DNA of 43,089 bases, taken from an uncultured Bacillota bacterium (GTDB lineage: Bacteria > Bacillota_I > Bacilli_A > Izemoplasmatales > Hujiaoplasmataceae). Positions within the stretch are counted from its first letter, which is position 1, and the number at the start of each line of letters is the position of its first letter. The DNA is taken from NCBI GenBank assembly GCA_937862575.1, contig CALMFM010000019.1:1-43089 (forward strand), given 5' to 3'. Under the pieces are notes generated by a model that was not told the DNA's origin, searched no databases, and saw nothing but the letters and a program-made list of their open reading frames with translations. Shown here in pieces: positions 25,209 through 30,406 of this stretch. The position numbers were made by a program, and so were the translations under genes.

Positions 25209-25400
25209 TTAAGCTCTGTTGACTTTTCCGCTTCTTAAAGCTCTAGCAGAAACGTAAACTTTTTTAACTTGTCCATCCTCATCAACAACTCTAACCTTCT
25301 GTAAATTAGCCTTCCACAATTTTCTTGTGGCGTGCATAGAATGGGAACGTTGATTGCCAGACATGAACTTCTTACCGGTCACACTGCATTCTCTTGGCAT
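25209..25400 (-). CDS. rpmB: 50S ribosomal protein bL28
   Basis: A 63-residue basic protein with the L28 pattern [34 protein letters not shown]. The cysteine-zinc form is reduced to a single Cys. It starts with ATG after an AACGGAGTGAT-type RBS on the minus strand. Its divergent placement against fakA matches the rpmB/yloU-yloV neighbourhood of Bacillus. Confidence 0.97.
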
Positions 25401-25495
25401 GATATCACTCCGTTTCTGTTAAGATTTCAGCATACAATATTTTATCATATATTTGAAAAAAAGCAAGGATAAAAAAACAATTATTTATTGATATT

Positions 25496-25512
25496 ACTTT
25501 GAAAATCAAAGT
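25496..25512. promoter_or_regulatory. Perfect palindrome matching the FabT operator pattern
   Basis: ACTTTGAAAATCAAAGT is a 7-bp inverted repeat around AAA, located 2 bp upstream of the -35 box of the fakA promoter. The known FabT (MarR family) operator of streptococci has the form ANTTTGATTATCAAATT, and the conserved TTTGA/TCAAA halves and spacing are the same. That FabT or a homologue binds here is inference; no such regulator is in the window. Confidence 0.55.
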
Positions 25513-25514
25513 TA

Positions 25515-25543
25515 TTGCAATTTTGTATCCGATATGTTATAAT
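25515..25543 (+). promoter_or_regulatory. fakA promoter
   Basis: TTGCAA (25515-25520) and TATAAT (25538-25543) are separated by 17 bp. Transcription would start near 25550, leaving about 70 nt of 5' UTR before the fakA ATG. Confidence 0.8.
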
Positions 25544-25618
25544 GCTATTGCTTTTTTTTATGATGAAAATACCTGAAAATGTACAAATAAATTCAAAAAA
25601 CTCAAGGAGATTTAAATT

Positions 25619-27286
25619 ATGGCAACACATCAAATTGATGGAAACCAGTTTAAGAAATTAGTATTAAATGGCAGTATCAGGCTTAGAAACAACATGAATT
25701 ACATCAACGATCTCAATGTATTCCCTGTTCCAGATGGTGATACCGGATCGAATATGTCGGCTACTATGTCAGCCGGAGCCAAGGCCATCGAAAGCCTAGA
25801 TGAGCCATCCATTGGTAGCGTATGTAAAACTTTGGCAAGAGGAATGTTGATGGGTGCACGAGGCAACTCCGGAGTAATCCTATCTCAACTTTTCAGTGGT
25901 GTGGCTAAAGGCTTAAAAGATTATGAAATTGCCGATCCTGTTGTATTTGCCGATGCACTTAGAATGGGTGTTGAACAGGCATACGCCGCTGTTATCAACC
26001 CTGTAGAGGGAACCATGTTGACAGTATCAAGAGAAGCAGCTGATAAAGCGGTTTCCATTGCTCATTCTGTAACAGACTTCGAGCAATTATTCGAAGAGTA
26101 CATCGTGGAATTGGATGCATCTTTGGAAAGAACACCGGACTTGCTACCGATTCTAAAAGAAGTCGGAGTAATCGATTCAGGAGCCGCAGGCTTTATCGAA
26201 GTTGTAAAAGGTATGAACGACGCCTTGAATGGCAAAACATATCAATCAAAACAAGAATCAGGAGACTACAAAGTCAATCTGACCAATATTCAAAATGCTG
26301 AAGGTGAAAACTTTGGTTACTGTACTGAATTCATCATGCAAATCGAGAAGATGAACGAATTCAACCAAAAACAATTCACAGAGATGATCCATCCTCTGGG
26401 AGATTCTTTGGTAGTTGTACAGGATGAAAACATCCTCAAAGTCCATATTCATACATTGACTCCTGGCGATGCATTGAATCTTGCACAACATTACGGATTC
26501 TTTATCAACATCAAGATAGAGAATATGAATCTACAACACACTGAAGTGTTAATTCATCAGGAAATCGAGCATCAAGACGAGTGCGACTGCGGACATGACC
26601 ACAGCCATAGTGTAGCTCCAACAATGAAGAAGAAGTACGCTATCGTTGCCGTCGTCAACGGGACAGGACTAAAAGAGACATTCATCGAAATGGGTTGCGA
26701 TTACATTATCGAAGGCGGTCAAACCATGAATCCGTCTGTAGAAGAATTCGTTAAGGCAGTTGAGCAAATTAACGCTGATCACATCATCATTATTCCTAAC
26801 AACAAGAATGTTCTTTTATCCGCTGAAACAGCTGCTAAAATGATTGAAGGCGTCGATGTCAGAGTATTGAAAGCAAAAACGATTTCTCAAGGCTATGCCG
26901 GACTCACGATGTTTGATGCAACAATGGATATCGATGAAAATCTTGAAGAGATGAACAATTATATCCAAAATGTCAAGACAGGTGAAGTGACTTATGCAAT
27001 CAGAGACAGTGTCTATAATGGCGTGGAAATCAAAAAAGACCATTTCATGGGAATATTCGATGGCAAGATTGTAACTAGTAACGAAACCAGATTGCAAACA
27101 TGCGAACATATCCTTCGTGAAATGATTGACAAGCGCACAGAAATAGTGACTATTATGTATGGTGTTGATGTTGACGAGAATGAAGTGTCAGAATTGGAAA
27201 CATACTTAGACGACAACTTCTCTGTCGAAGTTGAAATAATTTCCGGTGGGCAAGACATCTACTCATACATTATAACAGTTGAATAG
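25619..27286 (+). CDS. fakA: Fatty acid kinase catalytic subunit FakA (YloV/DAK2 family)
   Basis: Phosphorylates fatty acids bound to a FakB protein, giving acyl-phosphate for PlsX/PlsY phospholipid synthesis. In 555 residues the N-terminal DAK2-type kinase domain shows NVFPVPDGDTGSNM and ARGNSGVILSQLF; a middle domain and a C-terminal EDD-fold domain follow. Between them is a His/Cys-rich stretch (HQDECDCGHDHSHS, about 319-332) that could bind metal. The RBS is AAGGAG. The Asp23-like yloU gene that often precedes it is absent. A FabT-like palindrome lies upstream. Confidence 0.95.
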   Translation: MATHQIDGNQFKKLVLNGSIRLRNNMNYINDLNVFPVPDGDTGSNMSATMSAGAKAIESLDEPSIGSVCKTLARGMLMGARGNSGVILSQLFSGVAKGLKDYEIADPVVFADALRMGVEQAYAAVINPVEGTMLTVSREAADKAVSIAHSVTDFEQLFEEYIVELDASLERTPDLLPILKEVGVIDSGAAGFIEVVKGMNDALNGKTYQSKQESGDYKVNLTNIQNAEGENFGYCTEFIMQIEKMNEFNQKQFTEMIHPLGDSLVVVQDENILKVHIHTLTPGDALNLAQHYGFFINIKIENMNLQHTEVLIHQEIEHQDECDCGHDHSHSVAPTMKKKYAIVAVVNGTGLKETFIEMGCDYIIEGGQTMNPSVEEFVKAVEQINADHIIIIPNNKNVLLSAETAAKMIEGVDVRVLKAKTISQGYAGLTMFDATMDIDENLEEMNNYIQNVKTGEVTYAIRDSVYNGVEIKKDHFMGIFDGKIVTSNETRLQTCEHILREMIDKRTEIVTIMYGVDVDENEVSELETYLDDNFSVEVEIISGGQDIYSYIITVE

Positions 27287-27294
27287 AAATCTTT

Positions 27295-27323
27295 AGAGGT
27301 ATTGTTAGATACCTCTTTTTTTT
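27295..27323 (+). terminator. Intrinsic terminator between fakA and recG
   Basis: AGAGGTAT-TGTTAG-ATACCTCT is followed by TTTTTTTT. The T-run merges into a TATAAT (27325-27330), which is probably the -10 of recG. Confidence 0.88.
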
Positions 27324-27350
27324 ATATAATATTACCAGTATGGAGTAATT

Positions 27351-29389: not shown

Positions 29390-30406
29390 ATGTTTAGAAT
29401 CGCAGTAGACGCCATGGGCGGAGATTTCGCTCCAAAGGAACAAATAGCCGGCGCTATGATGGCAATCCGGAATATCCCGGATATTGAAATAATCCTATAT
29501 GGTGACGAACAGGTTATTCGTCCGCTTTTGACTAATCCTGAAAGGATTTCCATAGTGCACGCACCTTTTGTCATTCCAATGGGCGAGAAGAATCCAATTC
29601 AAGCAATTAAATCAAACAAGGACACATCTTCAATGGCAAGAGCTTTACAGAGCCTGAGAAACGAAGAAGCTGACGCTGTAGTATCAAGCGGAGCTACTCA
29701 AGCTTTGATTGCCGGAGCTCATATACTAGTCAGAAGAATGCAAGGATTCAAACGCACAGCCATAGCACCGGTTATTCCTTCAGTTTCTGGCAAGCCAACC
29801 ATTTTACTCGATTCCGGTGCCAATATCAGCATCAAACCCGAATTCATGTTGCAACAGGCATATTTTGCCAAAATATACGCTGAAGAAATTCTTAACGTAG
29901 AAAATCCTAGAGTAGGACTTATCAATATTGGAACTGAACCAGGCAAAGGCAGAGAACTTGATCATGAGGCTTATGCACTATTTTCAAGTACGGATTTGTT
30001 TGAATTTTACGGAAATGTCGAGCCTAAAGAAATCCTTGATCCACCATGTGATATTTTGATAAGCGACGGATTTACTGCGAATATCGTAATGAAGACCATC
30101 GAAGGCACGGCCAAGGGAATGGGCAAGTTATTGAAGAAACATCTTACCAGCACTTTCTTTGGAAAAATAGGTGCTTTGTTGGCAAAGAAGAATCTCAATG
30201 ATTTCAAGAAATCAATATCAGCTGAAGAAATCGGCGGAGCCGTAATATATGGATTATATAAACCTGTCATAAAAGCTCAGGGAGCTTCAAAGGAATTCGG
30301 TTTTTATAACGGCATCAGACAAGCAGCTAACATTTGTCGTACTGGTGTTTTTGAAAAAGTTAAACAATACCTTGACACAAATCAGAAGGAATTTGAAGAT
30401 GAGTAA
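29390..30406 (+). CDS. plsX: Phosphate acyltransferase PlsX
   Basis: Interconverts acyl-ACP and acyl-phosphate, the donor for PlsY in phosphatidic acid synthesis. The 338 residues start MFRIAVDAMGGDFAPKEQI, the PlsX hallmark, and contain RALQSLRNEEADAVVSSGATQAL, LLDSGANISIKP and NIGTEPGKG. It begins 38 bp after recG with AGAGGTG as RBS, and its end overlaps rnc by 8 bp. The acpP gene often found between plsX and rnc is missing here. It acts with FakA on the same acyl-phosphate pool. Confidence 0.97.
   Translation: MFRIAVDAMGGDFAPKEQIAGAMMAIRNIPDIEIILYGDEQVIRPLLTNPERISIVHAPFVIPMGEKNPIQAIKSNKDTSSMARALQSLRNEEADAVVSSGATQALIAGAHILVRRMQGFKRTAIAPVIPSVSGKPTILLDSGANISIKPEFMLQQAYFAKIYAEEILNVENPRVGLINIGTEPGKGRELDHEAYALFSSTDLFEFYGNVEPKEILDPPCDILISDGFTANIVMKTIEGTAKGMGKLLKKHLTSTFFGKIGALLAKKNLNDFKKSISAEEIGGAVIYGLYKPVIKAQGASKEFGFYNGIRQAANICRTGVFEKVKQYLDTNQKEFEDE

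Follow-up and report, generated by a model that had tools for sequence, protein, structure and literature searches.

Known FabT systems and the fakA locus

FapR of Bacillus, with malonyl-CoA as its ligand, is a global lipid regulator of Firmicutes that acts on fab and plsX; in this role it resembles FabT, the regulator considered here, to which it is unrelated in protein, operator and ligand. Studies of FabT come from lactic acid bacteria, in which it is coupled to synthesis genes. In Lactobacillales fabT heads the fab operon and co-repression by acyl-acyl carrier protein (acyl-ACP) is established, while fakAB and plsX of Enterococcus faecalis lie outside the FabT regulon (PMC13046290). The stretch analysed in this work (the window) comprises 43,089 nucleotides of an uncultured bacterium of the Izemoplasmatales and contains a perfect palindrome, ACTTTGAAAATCAAAGT, directly in front of the fakA promoter. 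Sequence comparison makes it highly probable that this palindrome is a putative operator at which a FabT homologue encoded on another contig of the genome, C47, would repress fakA; the fakB-fabT operon that encodes this regulator and, in relatives, acpP-fab would be under the same control.

The regulon proposed here shares with those of streptococci, enterococci and lactococci a MarR-type FabT, the core TTTGA-N3-TCAAA, and the occurrence of that core at fab and at the regulator's own operon; the consensus found agrees with the streptococcal one, ANTTTGATTATCAAATT (PMC10138225). A pneumococcal fabT mutant shows increased expression of bioY and of a DegV gene (PMC8406281). In Streptococcus pyogenes, fakB4 is under FabT, and this DegV/FakB gene carries ATTTTGATTATCAAA in its 5' untranslated region (PMC10138225). 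A DegV/FakB gene with a FabT site is thus common to both systems, but fakB4 is a fourth, side FakB outside the fabT operon, whereas here fakB and fabT are paired as a rule across the order and its neighbours. Unlike in lactic acid bacteria, fabT lies downstream of fakB, in an operon distinct from fab, and a site is also present at fakA. Relative to that group, both the linkage of fabT with fakB rather than with fab and the predicted targeting of fakA would be new. A search of a literature library pairing 'FabT' with 'Acholeplasma' or 'Mollicutes' found no paper.

The palindrome and the fakA promoter

The following elements were assigned in the window.

25496..25512, no strand: putative FabT-type operator ACTTTGAAAATCAAAGT, a perfect palindrome of 7 + 3 + 7 (arm, spacer, arm)
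25515-25520, + strand: fakA -35 hexamer TTGCAA, from sequence reading and promoter ranking
25538-25543, + strand: fakA -10 hexamer TATAAT, preceded by TG, from sequence reading and promoter ranking
25619..27286, + strand: fakA (YloV/FakA, 555 amino acids), the predicted target gene, from family profiles

The combination TTGCAA-17-TATAAT, with a spacer of 17 base pairs (bp), ranked top among the fakA promoter candidates. An earlier note on the window, made from its letters, had placed a perfect palindrome 2 bp from the fakA -35, and this position was borne out. The core occupies 25498-25510, its centre at about -46 relative to the expected fakA start, and the palindrome lies about 106 bp upstream of the start codon. 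The fakA product contains Dak2, FakA middle and FakA C-terminal domains and scores 614 bits against the YloV/FakA profile, above the cut-off; with the FakA equivalog model it reaches 531 bits, under the cut-off of 975.

The leader contains a further sequence, TATTGCTTTTTT, at 25544-25560 directly behind the -10, which is retained by many of the family's genera (leaders L043-L063) and often runs into the FabT half-site TTTGA. An Rfam scan of the fakA leader gave no match above threshold.

A FabT homologue encoded behind fakB

On contig C47 of the same genome a non-coding core stands immediately 5' of a DegV/FakB gene, which meets a MarR gene at its 3' end. The best solved relative of the encoded MarR protein is pneumococcal FabT (6jbx, E 4.9e-20), and in NCBIfam it scores 111 bits for FabT against 46 for the next family, a lead of about 65 bits. 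The protein is a predicted MarR-type winged helix closest to FabT. Its gene sits behind fakB and not inside the fab operon. The earlier note had proposed searching the genome for a FabT-like MarR gene with the motif at its own promoter and for further copies near lipid genes; C47 provides the former, and the latter were found in relatives, at the fakB-fabT, acpP-fab, accB and birA-like or bioY-like loci described below.

The other DegV genes of the genome were searched and no core was found at them. A second fakB-fabT pair, on contig C17 and also with a core, was dropped as the genome's own copy since it is probably contamination: C17 (L023, 3275 bp) is collinear throughout with contigs L195, L176 and L179 of Acholeplasmataceae, with identities of up to 88% for FabT and 91% for FakB.

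Conservation of the core at fakB-fabT, fab and fakA

FabT orthologues are present in 45 of 61 relatives. By the named matches to the FabT alignment, the window's genome, itself metagenome-assembled and close to Candidatus Izemoplasmatales, falls among metagenome-assembled genomes labelled Tenericutes, Bacilli, Izemoplasmatales and Acholeplasmataceae. A perfect core lies upstream of fakB in 28 of the 29 relatives in which FakB was read, typically just behind the -10. Of 75 named genomes whose fakB-fabT promoter could be read, 71 have one there, compared with 0.24% in shuffles; one genome with the core at fakB-fabT is the complete one of strain zrk7 (CP076021). The two sets overlap in part, some named records being the same genomes. 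Nineteen scrambled half-sites, used as a control at these promoters, gave none, and the enrichment falls at spacing 3. This near-universal core at the regulator's own promoter is the predicted signature of autoregulation. Strong FabT homologues of further families (L335-L352) are again located behind fakB, mostly with the core. More distant homologues are found in fab operons, beside an acyl carrier protein gene or at other places, mostly without the exact core. In the L341 genome fakB, fabT, acpP and acc follow each other in one row, which links the fakB-coupled and the fab-coupled arrangements.

At the synthesis genes the core was present upstream of acpP in all 18 relatives where acpP was found within the fetched fab region. 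It lies 4-5 bp upstream of the fab -35 in the window's genus, in genera g6 and g11 and in family f3, and behind the -10 in g2, g3, g4, g7 and g10. The placement relative to the -35 at fakA in the window is that of the fab operators in its genus and nearest kin. Family f3 has further copies at accB and at a birA-like or bioY-like gene, the latter recalling the FabT-responsive bioY of pneumococcus. Loss of fatty-acid synthesis in the window's genome was ruled out by the presence of fabF; some kin, for example the single-contig G027, retain fabT and fakB but no full-scoring fabF.

Next to the FabT core at both fab and fakA, family f3 (L145-L149; L235, L238, L240, L244) has another conserved element, TATGAGY...TATGA or TTCATA, possibly the site of a second lipid regulator. 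A core is also conserved upstream of a ribonucleotide reductase gene after the fab operon region (G000:C116:35359, G003:C21:5492, G004:C103:14685).

Upstream of fakA the core was found at 9 of 30 loci in a first set and 8 of 20 in a second, with scrambled controls averaging 0.05 and 0. Its position ahead of the -35 is shared by the window's genome (G000), G003 and G004 and matches that in the fab promoters of G002-G004; in G006, G012, G017, G020 and G026 it lies behind the -10. On this evidence fakA is a recurrent but shifting putative member of the regulon. Together with the counts at fakB-fabT and acpP-fab, these sites support the earlier note's reading of the palindrome as a FabT-like operator.

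Points against the proposal and alternative explanations

Several observations weigh against control of fakA by FabT. The fakA site is not universal (17/50) and its position shifts, being behind the -10 in several other genera and far upstream of the -35 in family f3, and two genomes of the same genus, G001 and G002, have no fakA core. The assembly is 88% complete and the fab contig starts inside the operon, so that the genome's own fab promoter falls in an assembly gap. The NCBIfam FabT equivalog cut-off of 200 bits was missed (111 and 116 bits). The FabT homologues of other families of the class are likewise below 200 bits (107-131), including two located in fab operons and one adjoining an acyl carrier protein gene; therefore the cut-off appears tight rather than excluding. 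The comparison as a whole supports the putative site, the regulator, the autoregulatory site and the fab sites; binding by FabT, repression rather than activation, and the ligand are what we infer.

The alternative that survives best, although we consider it unlikely, is that FabT activates fakA, or that its ligand is another one, for instance acyl-phosphate or fatty acid bound to FakB; the Fak genes would then be induced by exogenous fatty acid. Class-II activators bind at positions close to -46, where the palindrome is centred, and fabT is located in the fakB operon, not with fab. Moreover, repression of a fakB by FabT with acyl-ACP has been called 'perverse', as fatty acids would block their own use (PMC12594616). 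Activation is harder to reconcile with the fab promoters of the same genus, which share the placement while FabT represses fab in the species studied, and with the position behind the -10, that of a repressor, at fakB-fabT and at fakA of other genera.

Much less probable is that the operator serves the divergent gene on the other side of the shared intergenic region.

25439..25466, - strand: divergent rpmB promoter, -35 TTGCTT at 25461-25466 and -10 TAAAAT at 25439-25444, read from sequence
25209..25400, - strand: rpmB-like gene (ribosomal protein L28), the divergent neighbour, named from its own sequence without a family search

The palindrome lies within this shared region, and the distance of the f3 core from the fakA -35 could also be taken in favour of rpmB. 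However, fakA is the likelier target because 29 bp separate the palindrome from the rpmB -35 and only 2 bp from that of fakA; in other genera of family f1 the core is inside the fakA leader, and there is no known reason for L28 to be under lipid control.

Slightly less probable again is that the core is read by another MarR protein instead of FabT. Further MarR-domain genes exist in the genome and one core copy in G003 lies near a different MarR-like gene, yet the near-universal site is at the promoter of FabT's own operon, as fits autoregulation, and the core is identical to the known FabT site.

Least probable of all is a chance palindrome of AT-rich DNA, which the scrambled controls already make unlikely: the core recurs at the same fakA position in G000, G003 and G004, with FakA 83% identical to that of the window, and in 17 of 50 regions upstream of fakA against a scrambled-control mean below 0.1. 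The window by itself was ruled out as a source of significance. It has one core where 0.31 are expected for its composition, and a lone copy in 43 kb proves nothing because 25 of 100 shuffles of the window hold at least one; genome-wide there are 23 copies, many within coding sequence. The significance of the palindrome as a putative operator derives from position and conservation.

Extent of control

The earlier note had extended lipid-responsive control to the whole cluster including plsX. Of this claim the part concerning fakA is retained, as a putative target, and plsX probably falls outside.

27295..27316, + strand: terminator-like hairpin AGAGGTATTGTTAGATACCTCT with a T-run, ending fakA
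27302-27330, + strand: promoter-like TTGTTA-17-TATAAT for recG-plsX-rnc
29390..30406, + strand: plsX, downstream, probably outside the FabT-controlled unit, from its family profile

Control probably stops at fakA because the hairpin with its T-run and the promoter-like sequence separate recG-plsX-rnc from it. Control of plsX via read-through from fakA was ruled out on the same grounds, and plsX is probably not under the control of the palindrome.

Heliorhodopsin and other sites

A perfect core is present 59-62 bp before a heliorhodopsin gene (PF18761) in G000, G003 and G004, with the arms kept and different spacer letters (L038 4026-4038, that is G000:C186:11025; L288 1575 in G003; L309 in G004). 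These are all the genomes of the genus that have a heliorhodopsin gene. In G013 9 of 10 core positions agree, and the remaining 26 loci have no copy that good. The case for heliorhodopsin as a FabT target is weak because the three core-bearing genomes form one genus and the scrambled control on this set reached 2/30.

In nine genomes (G003:C41, G004:C56, G014:C23, G021:C1, G027:C1, G028:C153, G030:C108, G031:C12, G032:C26) a heliorhodopsin gene and a partial FakA match are no more than about 2 kb apart; where examined, in G003, the matching gene is a Dak2-DegV (FakA-FakB-like) fusion. In the window's genome a core also lies 65 bp before a peroxiredoxin (AhpC/TSA) gene (G000:C87:9726; L295 2227).

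Proposed mechanism and implications

In the proposed mechanism a FabT dimer would cover roughly -58 to -34 at the fakA promoter. The bound protein would compete with RNA polymerase for the -35 element and thereby lower fakA transcription. Through the same core the same regulator would act on its own fakB-fabT operon and, in relatives, on the acpP-fab operon. By analogy with lactic acid bacteria, the likely co-repressor is long-chain acyl-ACP. When the acyl pool is full, fatty-acid synthesis and the kinase route would then both be turned down.

A wider proposal, which we put forward tentatively and hold to be somewhat less likely than its opposite, is that FabT of the Izemoplasmatales and Acholeplasmatales primarily regulates fatty-acid acquisition, being encoded with FakB and exerting feedback on FakA and on synthesis, and that the regulon of the window's genus would include heliorhodopsin, a membrane protein that senses light and whose expression may be tied to membrane-lipid supply.

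The findings raise the question of whether FabT shuts both routes as a protection against too much fatty acid, or whether its ligand logic differs when it is encoded together with FakB. Across a whole group of mycoplasma-like bacteria, FabT control of fakB looks like the standard design, and in part of this group fakA belongs to the putative regulon as well.
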